Shown: one piece after another, positions 52,440-63,481 of the stretch
Numbering within the stretch: the first letter of the stretch is position 1
How the letters are laid out: every line of letters starts with the position of its first letter
Assembly: GCA_012517325.1 (NCBI GenBank)
Contig: JAAYVF010000041.1
Location: forward strand, 1 to 64,000
Origin: Myxococcales bacterium
Lineage (GTDB): Bacteria; Lernaellota; Lernaellaia; Lernaellales; Lernaellaceae
Direction: 5' to 3'
Length of the DNA: 64,000 nucleotides
The notes under the pieces: model-generated
What the model was told of the DNA's origin: nothing
The model's database searches: none
Seen by the model: the letters and a program-made list of their open reading frames with translations, nothing else
Program-made: the position numbers and the translations under genes

Positions 52440-52784
52440 TCAGAAGCTGAACTCCTTGCCACCCAGCAGGTGAAAATGCAGATGGAAAACCCGTTGGCCG
52501 CCCCACTCGTTGACGTTGTGCATGATCTTGAAACCGTTGTCCGCGATGCCCTTTTCCCGCGCCAGTTTGGCGGCCAGCCGGAAAACCTTGCCGACCAGAT
52601 CGAACCGGTCGTCCGGCAGATCCAGCAGCGTCGGCACGTGATCGTGCGGGATGATCAAAATATGCACGGGCGCGGCGGGGTGAATGTCGTTGATCGCCAA
52701 CAACTCGCCGTCGTCATAAATTTTCGGCGCGGGAATCTCTCCCTTGGCGATCTTGCAGAATACGCAATCCGGATCGTGCGGCAT
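52440..52784 (-). CDS. HIT-family protein (histidine triad nucleotide-binding)
   Basis: 114 residues from the ATG at 52784, which has GAGGAG upstream; the open frame to 52886 lacks a site and adds non-HIT sequence. CVFCKIAKGEI with two Cys supports the Hint branch, and the histidine triad is HLHFHLLGG. These enzymes hydrolyse adenosine phosphoramidates such as lysyl-AMP. It is the first gene of the minus-strand unit ending with the BamB-like gene. Confidence 0.93.
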   Translation of the reverse strand: MPHDPDCVFCKIAKGEIPAPKIYDDGELLAINDIHPAAPVHILIIPHDHVPTLLDLPDDRFDLVGKVFRLAAKLAREKGIADNGFKIMHNVNEWGGQRVFHLHFHLLGGKEFSF

Positions 52785-53208
52785 TCTCTTCTCCTCGTCG
52801 TAGCTTTCGGTTGTTAAATCGCACCCTGCCGGGTGGAGGTCAAGGGGTCGGGGGGCGAATAAAAAAATGGGGCCGGCGCCCATCACGCCCGCCCCGCCCT
52901 AAAAGGAAAAAACTTAAGATTCCCTCACTTAGGTAACCCTATCCTGGTGCGCATCATAATCACGAAAACTTTACTTTGACAAGCAAAAAATGTCGAAAAA
53001 AGACGCAACCATCCATTTGGCCCGGTGGTTTAAATCGGACGTCAACGTCTCCATTTCCTGGAATGGCGGACTTTTCAAAACTTCCTTGATTTTAGAGATT
53101 CGGTTCGGTATTCTCGAAACATTCAAAGAAAAAAACAAGAAAAAGCCCCGCGCTGCTCACGGCGCCAGGACTGAAAGACTAAAGGCAACCAGAAGAAAGG
53201 ACAAACAG
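52785..53208 (+). other. 424-base intergenic region with possible long leader for the thiolase pair
   Basis: Between divergent genes. It is AT-richer after about 52900 and holds TTGACA at 52976-52981, a possible -35 with no convincing -10. The frame that leads into the thiolase-like gene stays open from 52990, giving a 73-residue basic extension, but this has no thiolase likeness and the ATG at 53209 has AGAAAGGA upstream. A short GC-rich inverted element and GAAAG/GGCAACC words occur near 53145-53195, but their order does not fit a known riboswitch. Confidence 0.4.
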
Positions 53209-54315
53209 ATGGGTGTAGCAGTGCTCGGTATCGGCATGTGCGGCTTCACGCCCACCTCGACGGGACTATCGTACCGCGAGTTGATCGCCAAAGCCGCGAA
53301 AATGGCCTACACCGACGCCGGCGTTACCATCGACCAGATCGATGGCGCGGTCTCGGTGGAGGAGGATTTCAATTCCGGCTATTCCATTTGCGATGAGTAC
53401 GTACCGGATCAGCTTGGCATGGTCCGCAAGCCGGTTTACTCGATCCCGGGCGACTTCCTGCACGGCATCGGGTCGGCCGTCATGCAGATCAAGACGGGCC
53501 GGTACGGCATTCTCGTGGTGGAATCCTACAGCAAGGCCTCCAACATCCTGACCAAGGACGAGTTGCTGCGCTTTGCCTTCGATCCGATCTTCAACCGGTT
53601 CGGCGTCTCGCCCCATTACCTGGCGGGCATCGAGATGCGGTCCTTCCTCAACGAATCGGACTACCGGATGGAGGACGTGGCCGAGGTCGTGGTGAAGAAC
53701 CGCGCCAACGCCCTGTTCAACAGCAACGCGCCCTACGGCGGCCGCTACACCGTCGGCGACGTGCTGGAAGCGCGGCCGGTCGCCGCGCCGATCACCGAAC
53801 TGATGTTCCCGCGCCATGCCGACGGCGCCGTCGTCGTCGTGCTGGGCACCGACGAACTGGCCCGCGAATACGCCCGCAAGCCGGTCTTCATCGCGGGCAC
53901 CGGCTGGGGCTCGGGCACCTCGATCCTCGAACGGCGCGACCACGCCTATTCCGTGGGTACCGAAATCGCCGGCACCCTCGCCTACCAGGAAGCCGGCATC
54001 GAGAATCCGGCCGAGGAAATCGACGCCTTCTTCGTTTCCGACCTGTACGCGCACCGCGAATTGATGCACCTGGAAGCGCTGCAGATCGGCGGCTGCGACG
54101 CCGCGATCGTCAACCCGAACGGCGGTTCGCTGGGCAACGGCGACCTGCTCGAGCTCAACGGCGGCGCGCGCTTCTACGAAGCGGTCGCGCAACTGCGCGG
54201 CGAAGCGGCGGCCTGCCAGGTCGAGGCCGAGCGCGTGCTGGTGCACGGCTGGCGCGGCCTGCCCACCGACTCCTGCGCGGTGGCCATTTTGGAAACGGAA
54301 AGGAGGGCGTCATGA
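53209..54315 (+). CDS. Thiolase-fold protein lacking canonical catalytic residues
   Basis: 368 residues, thiolase/SCP-x fold (GVAVLGIGMCGFTPTSTGLSYRELI; NRANALFN; RHADGAVVVVLGTDE). Two features differ from true thiolases: no Cys is found in the segment SIPGDFLHGIGSA where the nucleophile belongs, and the GHP His block is GGSLGNGDLLELNGG, with Asp at the His position. Similar proteins in steroid and other pathways (Ltp2-type) act as retro-aldolases or non-condensing partners with DUF35 proteins. The downstream gene overlaps by four bases (ATGA) and supplies a second thiolase fold with DUF35 modules, so the two likely form one complex. Confidence 0.7.
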   Translation: MGVAVLGIGMCGFTPTSTGLSYRELIAKAAKMAYTDAGVTIDQIDGAVSVEEDFNSGYSICDEYVPDQLGMVRKPVYSIPGDFLHGIGSAVMQIKTGRYGILVVESYSKASNILTKDELLRFAFDPIFNRFGVSPHYLAGIEMRSFLNESDYRMEDVAEVVVKNRANALFNSNAPYGGRYTVGDVLEARPVAAPITELMFPRHADGAVVVVLGTDELAREYARKPVFIAGTGWGSGTSILERRDHAYSVGTEIAGTLAYQEAGIENPAEEIDAFFVSDLYAHRELMHLEALQIGGCDAAIVNPNGGSLGNGDLLELNGGARFYEAVAQLRGEAAACQVEAERVLVHGWRGLPTDSCAVAILETERRAS

Positions 54316-56513
54316 GCCAGAGAGTAGCCGTCGTCGGCGTCGGCATGACGAAATTCATGCGCCGGGCCAAGGAATCCCCCGGCGAGTTGGCGGCCAGCGC
54401 GGTCCGCATGGCCCTGGACGATGCCGGAATGGAAATCGACGAGATCGACGCCGTGTGCCTCGGTACGGCCCCGGATGCCTTCGACGGCATTCACATGAAG
54501 GGCGAACACCTGATCGCGGGCGCCGGCGCCTCCAACAAGCCGTACCTGCGGCATTACGTGGGCGGCGCGACAGGCGTGATGAGCCCGATCCACGGGTGGA
54601 TGCACGTCGCTTCCGGCAAATTCAACTCGTGTCTGGTGATCTGCGAAGAAAAGATGTCGCCGTGCAGCCCGCACCCCGCCGGCGCCTTCCTCACCATCTT
54701 CGACCGCGTGACCGAGCAGCCGCTGCAACTCACGCTGATCCACATCTTCGCGCTCGAGATGGCGCGCTTCATGCACGCCTACGGGTACACCGAGGAAGAC
54801 ATCGCGCGGGTGTCGGTGAACAACAAGCGCAACGCGCTGGATCACCCGGCCGCGCAGATCGCCGAGAACCTGACCGTGGCCGACGTTATGAATTCGACGC
54901 TGCTGTCCTGGCCGGTGAAACGCCTCGACATCAGCCCGACTTCCGATGCGGCGGTGGCGATCATCCTCACCAACGAACGCGTGGCGCGGGCCAAGAAGCC
55001 GGCGCCGGTGTTCATCGACGGCGTCGGCTTCCGGCTCGACACCGCCTATTGGTGCACGCGCGACCTGGCCTATCCGAATTACGTCGCCATGGCCGCGCAG
55101 GACGCCTACAAAATGGCCGGCGTCGTCAACCCCGTGAAGGACATCGACATCTTCGAGCCGTACGATCCGTTCGATTACAAGGCGCTGCATCACATGAACG
55201 GCCTGCTGCTCGACAAGACCGGCAAGACCGTCAAGGACCTGCTGTTCTCCGGCGCCTTCGACCGCGCCAGCGGCACGCATCCGCTATGCCCGTCGGGCGG
55301 CGCGCTCGGCGTCGGCAACCCGATCGCCGCGACCGGCCTGATGAAAATCGCCGAGTTGTACTTCCAACTTAGCGGGCAGGCCGGCAAACGGCAGATTCAA
55401 CGGCCCATCCGGCGCGGCGTCGCGCAAGCTTGGGGCGATCTGATGCAGGTCGGCACCGTCGTGGTGATGAGTTCCGAAGGCGCGCCGCCGCACGCCGTCG
55501 GCCACTGGAACAAAATGGAAAAAGCGGACCTGCCGGGCACGCCGCTGAAGAAGATCACCGACGTGCCGTACATCGCCGAGACGCCCGACCTGCGTTACGC
55601 GTGGGACAACGGCTTCGCCATGACGACCTACCTGGACGGTCTGAAGCAGGGCAAGATTCGCGGCAGCTACTGCCGGGGCACCGACCGGATGATGATTCCG
55701 CCGCGGGCCTTCAGCGAAATCGACAACCTCAACCCGGTGTTCGACTACTTCAACCTGCCCGACACCGGCACCGTGCAGACCTATACGATCAGCCACGTCA
55801 ATTGGGATTCCTCGCCGTTGCCCGACGGCCAGGTCAACATCTTCGCCGTGATCGCCATCGACAACGCCGGCGAGCACATGGGCCTGGTGCACCTGCTGCG
55901 CGACGTCGATCCCAAGGACGTGCACATCGGCATGAAGGTCAAGGCGGTCTGGAAGAAAGCCGAGGAACGCGTCGGCTCGATCATGGACATCCTGTATTTC
56001 ACGCCGCTGGGCAAACGCGCCAAGATCGACGGATCGATCGAAGCGATCAAACCGGTCGAACTCGACGCCACGACCGCCGGCTATTGGCCCGGTAAGATCC
56101 CGCTCAATTACTTGTACACCGCCGGTCTGGCCGGGGTGAAGTTCTACAAGGATCTGGCCGCCGGCAAAATCACCGGCACCTGGAACGAGGAACTGGAAGC
56201 GACGGTGATTCCGCCCATGGCGTTCGACGAGAATTCGATGGACCTGCTCAATCCCGAGAGCGAGGCGCGGGCCGTCGATCCGGCTTCGGGCTACATCGAA
56301 TCGTTCAGCATCGTGTACGAGGACCGCAAGGGACACCTGCTCGCGGAACCGGTGGTGATCGTGCAAGTGGCCTTCGCCGACGTCGTCGGTTCGATCTTCG
56401 GCCGCCTGGACGTGAAGGAAGGCGACGAGTTCGGCATCGGCGATCCGGTCGTGTTGGTCAAGAGCAAGAAGATTAACGGTCCGGACGACGTGAAGTTCCG
56501 CCTGCGGAAATAA
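54312..56513 (+). CDS. Thiolase-fold / tandem DUF35 fusion protein
   Basis: 733 residues. Residues 1 to about 400 are a thiolase fold (RVAVVGVGMTKFMRR, EEDIARVSVNNKRNALDHP) in which the nucleophile Cys position is Gly (YVGGATG) and the His block is GGALGVGNP with Asn336 in place of His. Residues about 425-575 form a DUF35 module: a rubredoxin-like ribbon with only one Cys left (Cys454, KIRGSYCRGTDRMMIPPRAF) and an OB fold (about 480-560). Residues about 600-725 are a second DUF35-like module with no ribbon Cys (IPPMAFDENSMD). In known systems DUF35 proteins carry or channel acyl-CoA for thiolases and aldolases. The fusion with two modules is unusual. Confidence 0.72.
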   Translation: MSQRVAVVGVGMTKFMRRAKESPGELAASAVRMALDDAGMEIDEIDAVCLGTAPDAFDGIHMKGEHLIAGAGASNKPYLRHYVGGATGVMSPIHGWMHVASGKFNSCLVICEEKMSPCSPHPAGAFLTIFDRVTEQPLQLTLIHIFALEMARFMHAYGYTEEDIARVSVNNKRNALDHPAAQIAENLTVADVMNSTLLSWPVKRLDISPTSDAAVAIILTNERVARAKKPAPVFIDGVGFRLDTAYWCTRDLAYPNYVAMAAQDAYKMAGVVNPVKDIDIFEPYDPFDYKALHHMNGLLLDKTGKTVKDLLFSGAFDRASGTHPLCPSGGALGVGNPIAATGLMKIAELYFQLSGQAGKRQIQRPIRRGVAQAWGDLMQVGTVVVMSSEGAPPHAVGHWNKMEKADLPGTPLKKITDVPYIAETPDLRYAWDNGFAMTTYLDGLKQGKIRGSYCRGTDRMMIPPRAFSEIDNLNPVFDYFNLPDTGTVQTYTISHVNWDSSPLPDGQVNIFAVIAIDNAGEHMGLVHLLRDVDPKDVHIGMKVKAVWKKAEERVGSIMDILYFTPLGKRAKIDGSIEAIKPVELDATTAGYWPGKIPLNYLYTAGLAGVKFYKDLAAGKITGTWNEELEATVIPPMAFDENSMDLLNPESEARAVDPASGYIESFSIVYEDRKGHLLAEPVVIVQVAFADVVGSIFGRLDVKEGDEFGIGDPVVLVKSKKINGPDDVKFRLRK

Positions 56514-56528
56514 ACGCCATTAAATTGA

Positions 56529-56564
56529 AACGGCCCGGGGCGCAGGCTCCGGGCCGTTCTTTTT
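56529..56564. terminator. Strong bidirectional terminator between converging acyl-CoA genes
   Basis: AACGGCCCGG (56529-56538) pairs perfectly with CCGGGCCGTT (56549-56558) and is followed by CTTTTT on the plus strand; on the minus strand the stem is followed by TCAATTTA. It separates the thiolase-fold pair from the mutase operon. Confidence 0.85.
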
Positions 56565-56573
56565 ACGGATGGA

Positions 56574-56981
56574 TTACTCGACCTGCCGTGGCTCGACGAC
56601 CGTCTTGACGAAATCGACGATCTCCTGGATCGGGGTGCCGGGGGTAAACAACGCGGCCACACCCTTCTCTTTCAGCCCCGCGATGTCGACCTCGGGAATG
56701 ATCCCGCCGCCGAACACGATGATGTCGCCGGCCCCTTTTTCTTGCAGCAGGCGGATCACCTCGGGAAACAGATAATTGTGGGCGCCGGAAAGAATGGAAA
56801 GCCCGACGGCGTCGACGTCTTCCTGGATGGCGGTATTGACGATCATTTCCGGCGTCTGATGCAGGCCGGTATAAATGACTTCGTAGCCGGCATCGCGCAA
56901 AGCGCGCGCGACGATCTTGGCGCCGCGGTCGTGTCCGTCCAGGCCCGGCTTGCCGATTAATATGCGGATTTTGCGATTCAT
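56574..56981 (-). CDS. Cobalamin-binding small subunit of acyl-CoA mutase
   Basis: 135 residues, a stand-alone B12-binding Rossmann domain. [18 protein letters not shown] holds the DxHxxG signature whose His ligates cobalt, with GLSILSGAH and VFGGGIIP forming the nucleotide-tail groove. The length equals that of IcmB and HcmB. GGGGAGGG precedes the ATG, 85 bases after the large-subunit stop. With the large subunit it should make a two-chain mutase of the isobutyryl-CoA mutase type. Confidence 0.93.
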
Positions 56982-57066
56982 CGCACCCTCCCCTGAATCC
57001 TGTATTGCGACTGCACTACGATCGCACCACTGATCAACGAGCCGAAACGGCCGGTTGCAAATCCGG

Positions 57067-58701
57067 CTAGAGATAGGCCGGATCGGAATATTCGCCGAAA
57101 ACTTCGCGCAGCCGGTTGATGATTTCGCCCAGGCTGGCGTAACTCCGGACGCAATCCAGAATCGCCGGCATCAGGTTGCCGCCGTTGACGGCGGTTTCTT
57201 TCAAGGCGCGCAGGTTTTTCGCCACGGCCTCGTTGTCGCGGTTTTCCCGGACGCGCTGCAGATTCTCCACCTGGCGTTTTTCGATCGCTTCGTCGATGTA
57301 AAGCGTGTCGATGTTGATCGCTTCCTCGGTGGCGAATTTATTGACCGCGACGATGGTCTTTTCGTTCTTGTCGACCTGCTGCTGATAGTGATAGGCGGCG
57401 TTGCTGATTTCCCGTTGCGGGTAACCGCGCTCGATGGCGCGGATCATGCCGCCCATTTCGTCGATCTTGCGGATGTACTCCAGGGCGTCGGCTTCCAGGC
57501 GATTGGTCAGCGACTCGACGAAGTACGAGCCGCCGAGCGGGTCGATCACGTTCGCCACGCCGCTTTCCTCCGCCAGGATTTGCTGGGTGCGCAGCGCGAC
57601 GGTCACCGCCTGTTCGGTCGGCAGCGCCAGGGTTTCGTCCAGGCTGTTGGTGTGCAGGCTTTGGGTGCCGCCGATGACCGCGGCCAGCGCCTGGATCGTG
57701 GTGCGGACGATGTTGATGAGCGGTTGTTGCGCGGTCAGGCTGCAACCGGCGGTCTGTGTGTGAAAACGCAGCAGCCACGAACGGGGATTCTTGGCGCCGA
57801 TTTCTTCTTTCATGAAGCGCGACCAGATGCGCCGCGCCGCCCGGTACTTGGCGATTTCCTCGAAGAAGTCGCTGTGGGCGTTGAAGAAGAACGACAGCCG
57901 GGGCGCGAAAACGTCGGGGTCCATGCCGGCGGCGATCGCGGCCTTGACGTAGGTCATGCCGTCGCACAGCGTAAACGCCAGCTCCTGCACGGCGGTGCTG
58001 CCCGCCTCGCGGATGTGGTAGCCGCTGATGCTGATCGTGTTCCAGTTGGGAACTTTCTCGGCCGTGAATTTCATCACGTCGACGATGATCTTCAGGCTCG
58101 GTTCCGGCGGATAGATCCAGGTTTTCTGCGCGATGTATTCCTTGAGCATGTCGTTCTGGATTGTGCCGCCGACCTTGTCCCAGCTCACGCCCTGTTTTTC
58201 GGCGACGGCCAGGTACATCGCCAATAAAATCGGCGCCGGCGGATTGATCGTCATGCTCGTGGTGATCTGATCGAGCGGAATGCCGCTGAAGAGCTGTTCC
58301 ATGTCGGCGAGCGTATCGATGGCCACGCCGCACTTGCCGACTTCGCCGCGGCTGCGCGGATCGTCGGAGTCGCGGCCGTACAGCGTCGGAAAATCGAAAG
58401 CCACCGACAGGCCGGTCGTGCCGTTGGCCAGCAGGTACTTGTAACGCTCGTTGGTTTCCTTGGCGGTGCCGAAGCCGGAAAACTGCCGCATGGTCCAGGT
58501 GCGGCCGCGATACATGGTGTTGTGAATGCCCCGCGTGTAGGGGTAATCGCCGGGTTGTCCCAAATCACGGTGATAATCGAAGTCGGGCAAATCCTCCGGA
58601 GTGTAAAGCGGGTCGACCGGCAGATCCGACAAGGTCGTGAAGCTGCGCTCGAGCTTCGGGCTGGCCGCGAATTTTTCCAGCCATTCCTTCTTGCTTACCA
58701 T
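57067..58701 (-). CDS. Acyl-CoA mutase large subunit, isobutyryl-CoA-mutase-like
   Basis: 544 residues, the TIM-barrel substrate domain of B12 mutases without its own cobalamin domain. [19 protein letters not shown] and [21 protein letters not shown] are the two substrate-binding blocks. In methylmalonyl-CoA mutase the first block has Tyr (RQY) and the second has Arg (VRN/AR); here they are Phe and Gln, exactly the pair that defines isobutyryl-CoA mutase. The start of the substrate loop reads IHNTMY, so the usual Tyr of YPTMY is His. The His of [12 protein letters not shown] is kept. It overlaps the FadL-like gene by seven bases. Confidence 0.85.
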
Positions 58702-60011
58702 GGCCTCTTTCCGTTGTAGGCTTGATACATCCGTTCGAAGTTGAACGTGACCGCGCCGACGAACATGTCGTAGCTCGTTTTATAACGTCCGCGGCCGTCG
58801 TCGAGGCCGCTTTCGAAACTGCCGTCCGGCGGCGGAGTTTGAATGTCGTACTGATAGATGTGCGCGTAGCCCATGTCGATGTCCATGCCGAAATAGCGCA
58901 TCGTCAGGCCGGTGCCGAAAAAGTGCCGATCGGTTTCCGTGCCGCTGATTTTCGGCGGGTTCGCGGAATCCTCGTATTGGTAACCGCCGTGGAACCACCA
59001 GTGATCGTTCAGCCGGTAGGTGCCGCCGAGCCGGTAATTCCAGGTGTCCTGCCATTGCAGCGGGTATTTGAAGTCGGCCAGGATTTCCTCGCCTTCCAGA
59101 TCGACGTCGTAGTACGGCAGCATGGTCCAGGGAATGAAGCTGACATCGAATTCGACGTCGAATTTTTCGGGATACATGAACCGCACGCCGCCGCGGTAGA
59201 TCGGCGGATAGTTGAGCGGCAGGCGGATTTTGTCGGTGAAGGTCTTCATGCCCAGAATCGTCGCGTACAGATCGGGCATCTCCGCCTTGACCCGGCCGAC
59301 GATCGTCACGTCGAACGACGGCAGGTAGGAAAAGCCGACTTCGAACCAGTTGGGAATCGGCGCGAAAACGACGCCCGCGCCCCAACTGGGAACGTATTCC
59401 GTCCAGGCGGAAAACTCGCCGGTGACGTCAAAGGACGGATTGCGGTCTTTCAACACCGAGAAGCCGTAGTAGTTGATCAACTTGAAGTTGACCACGCTGG
59501 CTTTGGCGCCGACGCGCACCCAATCGGTCGGGTTCCAGGCCACGGCCAGCGATTGATAGACCTGGATCGCGTTGCTCTCGATGATGTTGTAGCGCTGCGG
59601 GCCGCGTTCCGGCCAGCGGTTGGTGGTGCCGTAGGGACCGTAGGCGCCGTAGGCGAACGTCCAATGCTTCAAGCCGAAATCGCTGGAAATCGCCGCGGTC
59701 TGGATCGGATCGAACGGGTTGAGATTGCGCACGGCGGATTGATACGGTTCGCGCCGGTAATAGGTGTGCTGAATATCATAATTGACGCAGAAATAGACGT
59801 TGGTGCCGTCGACATTGGCGATATTGGCCATGTTGACGTAGAGCGCCGACAAATCGTTGCCGCCCAGCACGTTGGCGCCGCCGCGCATCAACGAACGGGC
59901 GCCCAGTTCCGGATGGAAAAATCCGCTGGCGAAAACGAGTTGAGGAACGAAAAGAAAAACGGCGAGCAACAAGTAGATCCTGAAGCGAGTGGCAAGAGCA
60001 AGTGTGATCAT
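58695..60011 (-). CDS. FadL/TodX-family outer-membrane hydrophobic-compound channel
   Basis: 438 residues. A signal peptide ([17 protein letters not shown]) is followed by the N-terminal [24 protein letters not shown] plug segment typical of OMPP1/FadL/TodX, then an amphipathic beta-barrel ending in an aromatic ([16 protein letters not shown]). FadL-type barrels take up long-chain fatty acids or hydrocarbons by lateral diffusion. It is first in the operon and overlaps the mutase large subunit, which links uptake of a hydrophobic substrate to acyl-CoA rearrangement. Confidence 0.82.
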
Positions 60012-60244
60012 CCGATCCTCTGTTGTTGGCTCGAGTTAAGAACAGATGAAAGCATGCCTACGCTCATCAAAAATCACCGAGTTAAATGTGCGGGTTGGCG
60101 CCGCGAAGCGCCTCGGCCAGAAAAATCGACCTTACTTATCATCCATCGCTTGGAATGTCAAATGTTTGGAATTTCCGGGCTTCTCGCCGGTCGCGCGGCG
60201 AAAAAACTGGACAGAATCGGACCTTTTCCGTATATTGCCGGACC

Positions 60245-61486
60245 ATGAATTTTCTAAACGAACACGCTCGCGCCGTGCACACAGCGCCGATCCTGCTGGC
60301 GATGATCGAATCGCCCGCCAAGTTCAGTGAACTTTTCGAACAATACCGGGCTCAGGACGGGTTGATCGACGGCAAATTCCTCGACCAATTGCCGCTCGCC
60401 CGGCAGGTCTGGCAACGGCTGGCGGAATCCGAGACCGTTGCCGCGATCTTGGCATTGCCCCTCGCGTTCCGCGAAGCGATCTTTTTCGGCTTGCGCCGCG
60501 ACGGCCGCGCTGATCTGCTGGCGGCCTGCCTGGAAAACACCGCGGATAAAGCGCTCATCAAGCAGTTGAAACGGGTGCTCTACGAAATGAAACAAGAGGG
60601 GCATGAAATCGCCGAACGGCGTAAGAAAGCGCCCTTGTTTCGCAAAAACGCCGAGACTCCCCCCAACGAGGAAATTCCCTGCTACGTTTCCGTGGTGGAC
60701 GGGCGCAACGAGCGGATTCTCGTTCTGAACGAAACGGTTCGCGCTGGCGTGCGGACGCTGCAGGTTTACGACCGCGAGGGCCGGGCGATCGTCCATTTCT
60801 TCTCGGAAGAAACCAGCCGAAAAAAAGTGCGGGCTTTCATCAACGATTTGCAACAACTGCGCCAGGTGCCGCTGTTCGAGATCCCCCTCGCCTACGCACA
60901 GTACCTATTGCAAAAGTTGAATCGTCGCGCCGAACGCGCCGGCACCGCTTTTCCCGCCGGATACGTCTCCGCGATTTCGCGCCTGAAACTGCCGGAGGTT
61001 GCCGAACGTCACCCCTACCGTGAACTGGTGGACGGCCAGGCCGTGATGGAAAAGTTGACCGCCCTGCAAAGCAGCGGCGAACTTCATCGCGAACCGGAGT
61101 TCGCCTATTGGGTCTGCGACCGCGAAGCGCTGCTGGCCTTCCAGACGGCGCTTCAGGATTTGGAGACGGGACTGCTGACACTTTCGGAAGAGCAAAAAAT
61201 GGAGCAGATCGAAATCCGCCTCAGGCGGACGATCGATCAATTTTTCACGCCGGATCGACGGGAAATCTACGCGGATCGGTTGCGCGACGCTGCCTATCAA
61301 TTGGCCCGGCGTGACGCCCCGGGACAAGCCGTGACCGCCGCGGCGCTGGCGCTCCACCTTGAGGCGCCGGACAACCCTCCCGGCGAGGTGCCCTTCTTTC
61401 GGTTCATGCTGCTGAAATTGCTTCCCTTGAATCCAAGCGGCGCGAAACCGCCGGAGCCGGAAAACAAAAGCGGCTTGATTCTCTAA
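60245..61486 (+). CDS. Uncharacterised cytosolic protein
   Basis: 413 residues from the ATG at 60245; the frame is open to 60086, but that stretch lies in the divergent intergenic region. Mostly helical with charged segments; a small beta domain near residues 145-200 (PCYVSVVDGRNERILVLNETV, RTLQVYDREGRAIVHFFSEETSRKKVRAF). The C-terminal half has LEEQ-type helices and DQFFTPDRREIYADRLRDAAYQLA, and a Pro-rich tail. No family was recognised. It converges with the aminotransferase, 23 bases apart. Confidence 0.65.
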   Translation: MNFLNEHARAVHTAPILLAMIESPAKFSELFEQYRAQDGLIDGKFLDQLPLARQVWQRLAESETVAAILALPLAFREAIFFGLRRDGRADLLAACLENTADKALIKQLKRVLYEMKQEGHEIAERRKKAPLFRKNAETPPNEEIPCYVSVVDGRNERILVLNETVRAGVRTLQVYDREGRAIVHFFSEETSRKKVRAFINDLQQLRQVPLFEIPLAYAQYLLQKLNRRAERAGTAFPAGYVSAISRLKLPEVAERHPYRELVDGQAVMEKLTALQSSGELHREPEFAYWVCDREALLAFQTALQDLETGLLTLSEEQKMEQIEIRLRRTIDQFFTPDRREIYADRLRDAAYQLARRDAPGQAVTAAALALHLEAPDNPPGEVPFFRFMLLKLLPLNPSGAKPPEPENKSGLIL

Positions 61487-62701: not shown

Positions 62702-63481
62702 ATGCACCAACGCACATCGCTGTTCCTCCTGTTTACCTTGCTTTTATCGGCGACCTTCGGCATGGCCGCGCTTTGTTCGTCCGATGACGATGATGATAAC
62801 GATGACAGTGGCGACGACGACACTGCGGATGACGACCTCGTCGACGACGACAACGGCGACGACGACACTGCGGATGACGATGCGGCTGATGATGACGCGG
62901 CGGATGACGACGCCGCCGACGATGATGCAGCTGACGACGATGCCGCCGACGACGACAGCGGCGATGATGACGATGACGACGACGACAACGATGATGATAA
63001 CGACGATAACGACACCACGCCCCAGATGGGCTACGACGTCGGCGATAAAATGCCGGATTTTACACTGCTCGATCAGAAGGGCGACGAAGTTTCGCTGTAC
63101 GATTACGCCGGCAAGGTCATTCTTCTGGATACCTCGGCCATGTGGTGCGGCCCCTGTCAGCAGGACACTCCCAAGCTGGAAACCGATTACTACCAGGTCT
63201 ACAAGGATCAGGGTGACGGTTTCATGGTGCTGCAATTGATTCTGGCCAATTACAACGACAATCCGCCGACCCAGGCCGAATTGCTTGCCTGGGCGACCCT
63301 GTACGGCCTGACTTTCCCGGTGCTGGATGACAGCAGTTGGGACGTGACCTACCCATTGCACGGCGGATCGATTTCGATTCCGGCTTATGCCCTGCTCGAT
63401 CAGGAGGGCGTCATTCGGAAAAAGGAGGGATATCTGGTCTCCTATGACTCATTGATCGAAAGTTTGCTCGGTATCGACTGA
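62702..63481 (+). CDS. Secreted thioredoxin-fold protein with long Asp-rich linker
   Basis: 259 residues. A hydrophobic signal ends GMAALC, which only loosely fits a lipobox, so lipidation is uncertain. Residues about 28-103 are nearly all Asp with a DDDAA repeat. The C-terminal domain (about 110-259) is TlpA/AhpC-type thioredoxin: MPDFTLLDQKGDEVSLYDYAGKVILL, active-site WCGPC, and the cis-Pro region ISIPAYALLDQEG. It is likely a surface or periplasmic disulfide oxidoreductase on an acidic stalk. AGAGGGAG precedes the ATG. Confidence 0.8.
   Translation: MHQRTSLFLLFTLLLSATFGMAALCSSDDDDDNDDSGDDDTADDDLVDDDNGDDDTADDDAADDDAADDDAADDDAADDDAADDDSGDDDDDDDDNDDDNDDNDTTPQMGYDVGDKMPDFTLLDQKGDEVSLYDYAGKVILLDTSAMWCGPCQQDTPKLETDYYQVYKDQGDGFMVLQLILANYNDNPPTQAELLAWATLYGLTFPVLDDSSWDVTYPLHGGSISIPAYALLDQEGVIRKKEGYLVSYDSLIESLLGID
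62783..63013 (+). repeat. GAY-rich coding tract encoding Asp-rich linker
   Basis: About 230 bases of Asp codons with a 15-base unit (GAY GAY GAY GCN GCN) repeated in tandem in the middle. The third codon positions differ between units, so the pattern is kept at protein level and is not a fresh slippage product. Confidence 0.7.

Follow-up and report, generated by a model that had tools for sequence, protein, structure and literature searches.

An isobutyryl-type B12 mutase paired with a candidate thiolase-fold C-C lyase in Lernaellaia and distant bacteria

What is accomplished by a locus that encodes a FadL-like channel, a two-subunit B12-dependent mutase and two thiolase-fold proteins, one of them with tandem DUF35 domains? 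The locus lies in the window, by which is meant the whole stretch of 64,000 nucleotides analysed here, part of contig C41 of a 5.25-Mb, 97%-complete genome whose class comprises seven sampled genomes. The reading developed below, to which a probability of roughly 0.5 is assigned, is that of a catabolic module for branched-chain acyl-CoA compounds, comprising FadL uptake, a C-C lyase and the B12 mutase. All five open reading frames are intact and open, and together with Pfam/NCBIfam matches they agree with the gene families named in the initial annotation. On the forward strand, thl1 (53209..54315) and thl2 (54312..56513) overlap by ATGA and are both matched by Thiolase_C_1; thl2 encodes a 733-aa fusion, recognised by Pfam/NCBIfam and alignment, of a thiolase-fold domain (about residues 1-390) and two DUF35 OB-fold domains (about 425-570 and 595-733). 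The reverse strand carries mutB (56574..56981; TIGR00640, 176.5 bits), encoding the small B12-binding subunit of an acyl-CoA mutase, mutA (57067..58701; MM_CoA_mutase), encoding its large subunit, and a gene for a FadL/TodX-family outer-membrane channel (58695..60011; PF03349, Toluene_X/FadL, 91 bits), which overlaps mutA by 7 nt. The shared terminator proposed between the convergent halves is real: an intrinsic terminator at 56529..56558 has a stem of 13 pairs followed by CTTTTT, with fold z-scores of -4.75 on the forward and -3.88 on the reverse strand and a T tail that is strong on the former and weak on the latter. Rfam returned no riboswitch or other match within 52500-61000. Further along the window, positions 62702-63481 encode a lipoprotein-like protein with a long Asp-rich (DDD) stretch after the signal peptide and then a thioredoxin-like domain; lipoprotein-like proteins with such stretches are common in this genome.

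The gene set is real, conserved and functionally coupled, and conservation of the five-gene neighbourhood, which had been proposed as a check, is evident both in relatives within the class and in distant phyla. The thl2-DUF35-DUF35 fusion adjoins mutase genes in six of the seven genomes of the class, three with the genes in one direction and three convergent. The convergent order of the window is retained in G001 and G002, but it is one of two arrangements, most relatives having the genes in one direction, as in the fadL-mutA-mutB-thl1-thl2 order of G004, G005 and G006. The seventh genome, G003, is without the thl1, thl2 and DUF35 genes (hereafter the lyase genes, after the reaction proposed below) and retains fadL-mutA-mutB; fadL adjoins mutA in G001, G003, G004, G005 and G006. 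Linkage of FadL to the mutase is restricted to this small class of seven genomes, where it holds even without the thiolase-fold pair. On contig C16 of G001 (locus L047, 9464-12374) there is a second, divergent thl1-thl2-DUF35 copy; it has no mutase, and the genes after it encode an acyl-CoA dehydrogenase-like protein and an SDR.

A scan of 84,980 species genomes yielded 448 further loci encoding relatives of the lyase, the best 80 of which were read. Among these 80, thl1 precedes thl2 in 78, the other two being cut by a contig end, and two DUF35 domains, fused or separate, follow thl2 wherever the contig reaches. A two-subunit mutase is encoded in the same locus in 17 of the 80, directly upstream and on the same strand in 15 of the 17, the usual linked order being mutA-mutB-thl1-thl2-DUF35-DUF35. 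The mutase also lies beside the lyase in the window, G001, G004, G005 and G136, a distant genome in which thl1-thl2-DUF35-DUF35 converges on mutB-mutA plus an acyl-CoA dehydrogenase (ACAD) gene. On a mutase tree (79 sequences) the 'linked' label requires six changes, of which well-supported branches force at least four; the pairing has therefore arisen or been retained independently in several lineages. Recurrence of the mutase with the lyase in related genomes and distant phyla is far from chance.

The residues of the mutase bear directly on the chemistry. At two specificity positions mutA has Phe74 and Gln192, where methylmalonyl-CoA mutase (MCM) has Tyr89 and Arg207; the Tyr/Arg pair of the carboxylate-binding positions is therefore absent. 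We take Phe/Gln to be the signature of isobutyryl-CoA mutase. Wherever the sequence of a linked mutase extends over both sites, it has Phe/Gln, and five MCMs from the same clusters have Tyr/Arg; among the plasmid matches listed there was no annotated IcmF to serve as an external control for this rule. The subunits are separate, one large (about 550 aa) and one small and B12-binding (about 135 aa), as in the IcmAB type. Assignment to the isobutyryl-CoA type, and not the methylmalonyl type, is accordingly well supported by these residues, in agreement with the initial annotation, whose pathway and substrate remain at the level of inference. MutA is the only MCM-family large subunit found in its genome assembly, which also has one clear MeaB. 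The same genome contains 60 matches to B12-binding domains, most of them in large open frames and probably of radical-SAM type.

Two alternatives turn on these same residues. The mutase might belong to a 2-hydroxyisobutyryl-CoA pathway for tert-butanol or acetone, and the solved structure nearest to mutA is indeed HcmA (4r3u). The active site of HcmA, however, has Ile and Asp (Ile90 and Asp117) where Phe74 and Ala101 stand in the alignment of mutA to 4r3u, which speaks against that identity for the enzyme; nor was a 2-hydroxyacyl-CoA lyase gene seen nearby, and the pathway is very improbable. Anaerobic alkane degradation by fumarate addition, with FadL importing alkanes and the mutase converting alkylsuccinyl-CoA to alkylmalonyl-CoA, would account for the neighbouring channel and for the presence of about six glycyl-radical enzymes in the genome. 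Rearrangement of a dicarboxylic CoA ester, however, needs Tyr/Arg, and mutA has Phe/Gln. The five glycyl-radical enzymes scanned matched only formate acetyltransferase/dehydratase-type models, the one in locus L156 alone passing a curated glycyl-radical-enzyme model, and none matched the alkyl- or benzylsuccinate synthase models. Near the linked loci whose genes were listed there was no glycyl-radical gene. The residues and the scan together largely refute fumarate addition, which is hardly credible here. As to the glycyl-radical genes themselves (L223-L227), one (L227:4808-8182) is fused to its activating enzyme, and in L156 (G000:C6:28000-43000) a glycyl-radical enzyme gene precedes genes for a CoA-transferase subunit, MmgE/PrpD, an acyl-CoA dehydrogenase and an aldehyde ferredoxin oxidoreductase, apparently another cluster for anaerobic catabolism.

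The lyase genes present a different picture, in that the fold of a thiolase is present and its catalytic residues are missing. AlphaFold2 models gave thiolase folds for both thl1 (mean pLDDT 87) and thl2 (82). Alignment of thl2 with true thiolases and with two stretches of TcLtp2 database sequence showed that the nucleophilic Cys is replaced by Gly85, the His of the HD motif by Tyr284 and the GHP His by Asn336, a Gly/Tyr/Asn pattern found in every thl2 member aligned and also in the second copy at L047. In thl1 neither Cys nor His is conserved, and the protein is presumed to be a non-catalytic or substrate-shaping partner subunit. The SCP2-type thiolase triad is consequently absent from both proteins, and a plain thiolase is ruled out. 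The two thiolase-fold proteins described at the outset are therefore such by fold and not by function. Among curated models, the fusion scores 552 bits against NF004721 (PRK06065; cut-off 455), whose name, thiolase domain-containing protein, states no specific function, and the nearest model to thl1, NF004722/PRK06066, gives 334 bits, below its cut-off of 516. Neither protein matched an HMG-CoA synthase model in the model scan. The fusion has two PF01796 (DUF35, OB_ChsH2_C) stretches, with the zinc-ribbon PF12172 found only below cut-off, and most zinc-ribbon Cys of its DUF35 domains are lost; such loss is seen in fused domains of the window lineage and the Desulfobulbaceae, the residues being kept in others.

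TcLtp2 has Gly, Tyr294 and Tyr344 at the same three positions, and the likeness of thl2 to the steroid aldolases of the Ltp2-ChsH2(DUF35) (6ok1) and Sal-Shy(DUF35) (9myr) complexes extends to the joining of a thiolase fold with DUF35, here two domains fused in cis, to Gly where a thiolase has its nucleophilic Cys and Tyr where it has the catalytic His, and to linkage with ACAD genes, with MaoC hydratases in a Rhodococcus relative. The Tyr of Ltp2 and Sal is the catalytic base of retro-aldol cleavage (PMC12329534). Part of their signature is present in thl2 (Gly85, Tyr284) and part is absent, namely the His or Cys as third residue of the YD(H/C)(F/Y) motif, which in the YDPF of thl2 is Pro286, and the Tyr344 of Ltp2 or Gln352 of Sal. 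Identity is about 22%, and the locus adds a second thiolase-fold subunit, two DUF35 domains and coupling to a B12 mutase. With YDPF in place of YDHF or YDCY, and Asn at the Tyr344 position, thl2 is assigned to neither Ltp2 nor Sal. The Rhodococcus relative, a distant lyase homologue on plasmid pLP1 of R. qingshengii (L137), has the order ACADx2-MaoCx2-thl1-thl2-DUF35, which recalls the steroid side-chain (igr) operon. This igr-like module encodes a short thl1-like protein and a thl2-like protein with a YAPF motif, and its operon also includes a CoA-transferase and a ligase. The benzoylsuccinyl-CoA thiolase BbsAB (7pxp) likewise joins a thiolase fold to DUF35 in anaerobic catabolism, but thl1 and thl2 lack thiolase catalytic residues, score 69 and 82 bits against the BbsB model (cut-off 750), and are accompanied by no benzylsuccinate synthase that could be found.

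The replacement of the thiolase residues and the presence of the aldolase Tyr favour retro-aldol chemistry, and the best reading of thl1, thl2 and the DUF35 domains, resting on sequence and analogy, is that of a heteromeric retro-aldolase-like C-C lyase. Of the retro-aldol or thiolytic step originally envisaged, the first alternative thus gains from the aldolase Tyr and the second is left unsupported by the substitution of Gly for the nucleophilic Cys. Counting against retro-aldol cleavage, Pro286 and Asn336 leave no evident proton donor for the enolate, and the chemistry may differ. The proteins could instead act in the condensing direction, as a heteromeric acyltransferase or synthase for which the mutase would supply isobutyryl- or butyryl-CoA as starting material of a branched product. 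Two thiolase-fold subunits with DUF35 make up the PhlABC layout (PMC2954200), and the best Foldseek matches were an archaeal thiolase/HMG-CoA synthase complex, which was the best match of thl1, and a Pyrococcus thiolase, with Sal and Ltp2 matched as well. Known complexes of two thiolase-superfamily subunits with DUF35 nevertheless keep a catalytic Cys; here both the Cys that would accept the acyl group and the GHP His are gone from each subunit, which makes acyl-enzyme transfer unlikely, and the partners of the lyase (ACAD, ETF, HdrA, PCC, ACAT) are catabolic. A condensing enzyme is on these grounds improbable.

The catabolic company of these genes is clearest in relatives, whose neighbouring genes were compared after groups of antisense shadow ORFs had been set aside. 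One locus reads ACAT-HBD-crotonase-ACAD-mutA-mutB-thl1-thl2-DUF35-DUF35 (L119); two others, with gene names assigned by eye from sequence, read MeaB-mutA-mutB-ACAT-HBD (L232) and, without the lyase, ACAT-HBD-crotonase-ACAD-mutA-mutB-ACAD (L230). Phe/Gln mutases in such C4 beta-oxidation operons fit conversion of isobutyryl- to butyryl-CoA, and MutAB probably interconverts the two. Further likenesses to IcmAB and IcmF are the class of enzyme (AdoCbl acyl-CoA mutase), the Phe/Gln signature and two subunits as in IcmAB, neighbouring MeaB and adenosyltransferase genes in relatives and the C4 beta-oxidation context; what differs is the operon, which joins the mutase to a thiolase-fold/DUF35 pair and, within this class, to a FadL channel. 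Phe/Gln mutases also occur in many genomes without the lyase, so that the mutase is independent of it. Conversely, of the 48 genomes that carry the lyase with no mutase beside it, 44 gave a mutase-family match; among the 30 best matches that were typed, 29 are Phe/Gln and unlinked. Desulfobulbaceae with the fusion showed no close mutase homologue, their matches being MCM-like at about 50% identity or none. In Krumholzibacteriota and WOR-3, many loci consist of thl1-thl2-DUF35-DUF35 alone, without catabolic neighbours, suggesting that the role of the lyase may be broader.

Several of these contexts would also suit a more ordinary explanation, in which the breakdown of valine or isobutyrate employs a plain isobutyryl-CoA mutase, and the two thiolase-fold proteins act on short branched hydroxy- or oxoacyl-CoA from leucine or isoleucine, with HMG-CoA, 3-hydroxyisovaleryl-CoA and 2-methyl-3-hydroxybutyryl-CoA as candidates. 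The syntrophic isobutyrate degrader TGB-C1 encodes its mutase subunits with an adenosyltransferase and MeaB (PMC5017805), the layout of an adenosyltransferase-MeaB-mutA-mutB locus found here (L231). Desulfobulbaceae loci combine the lyase with ACAD, an XRE-cupin regulator and an acetoacetate-CoA ligase (TIGR01217, 908 bits against a cut-off of 521), the last being expected if acetoacetate is a product. A Desulfofustis MAG has, by eye, genes for a corrinoid protein and a methylcobamide methyltransferase-like protein adjoining its lyase genes (L065, 6702-8454). The linked ACAD is of short-chain type, with a 69% orthologue outside the locus in the window's own genome. Loci of the Syntrophaceae type read ACAD-HdrA-HdrA-CobA-mutA-mutB-thl1-thl2-DUF35-DUF35-ACAD-MeaB-PCC beta-MCM-epimerase; PCC, MCM and epimerase so close by suit the breakdown of these acids and indicate that propionyl-CoA is probably formed as well. 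In the window's own genome, however, there is just one PF01039 carboxyltransferase, and its scores place it with the methylmalonyl-CoA decarboxylase/PCC type, so that a separate methylcrotonyl-CoA carboxylase and hence the HMG-CoA route are not evident there; an HMG-CoA lyase-like role is hence unsupported in this genome and survives only within the wider explanation. Coupling of FadL with mutA would moreover be unexpected for such small acids. Amino-acid or short fatty-acid breakdown is possible, if doubtful.

Under the preferred reading of a module for branched-chain acyl-CoA compounds, FadL would admit a hydrophobic substrate in this class only, so that the uptake first proposed suits this version of the locus and not the pathway generally. 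As the neighbours in relatives suggest, acyl-CoA dehydrogenase and a hydratase would make a 3-hydroxyacyl-CoA; within the window no hydratase is fused or adjacent to the lyase. Thl1, thl2 and the DUF35 domains would assemble as a heteromeric thiolase-fold C-C lyase, in which, by resemblance to Ltp2 and Sal, Tyr284 of thl2 would take the proton of the 3-hydroxyl, and retro-aldol cleavage would give a ketone or aldehyde and an acyl-CoA. An alpha-methyl substrate or an alpha,alpha-dimethyl one would yield propionyl-CoA or isobutyryl-CoA. The mutase would then rearrange isobutyryl-CoA, or a homologue, to a straight chain to be oxidised, and propionyl-CoA, where formed, would leave by PCC and MCM. 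IcmF is active on both isobutyryl- and pivalyl-CoA (PMC10481361). A bolder and rather unlikely version is that of a widespread undescribed route that needs no oxygen: the thiolase-fold heteromer, its Tyr-Pro-Asn catalytic site being of a third kind, would split off isobutyryl- or propionyl-CoA from isoprenoids, sterols, hopanoids or other substrates with an alpha-methyl or gem-dimethyl group, and the B12 mutase would straighten the branched product for beta-oxidation.

The kinds of enzyme are already known, but their combination and the lyase active site appear to be undescribed in the open literature: in that on DUF35, thiolases, isobutyryl-CoA mutase and syntrophy no description of the set was found. 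The lyase is labelled 'thiolase' in hundreds of uncultured genomes despite its lost thiolase residues, a misleading annotation behind which an enzyme function is missing. Its repeated pairing with an isobutyryl-type B12 mutase suggests, in a form open to experiment, what its substrate and product may be. Mutase and lyase are retained side by side in unrelated bacteria and so probably mark an undescribed route for the breakdown of branched carbon compounds; their pairing could point to how terpenoids, sterols and branched acids, with their methyl branches and quaternary carbons, are handled by anaerobes.
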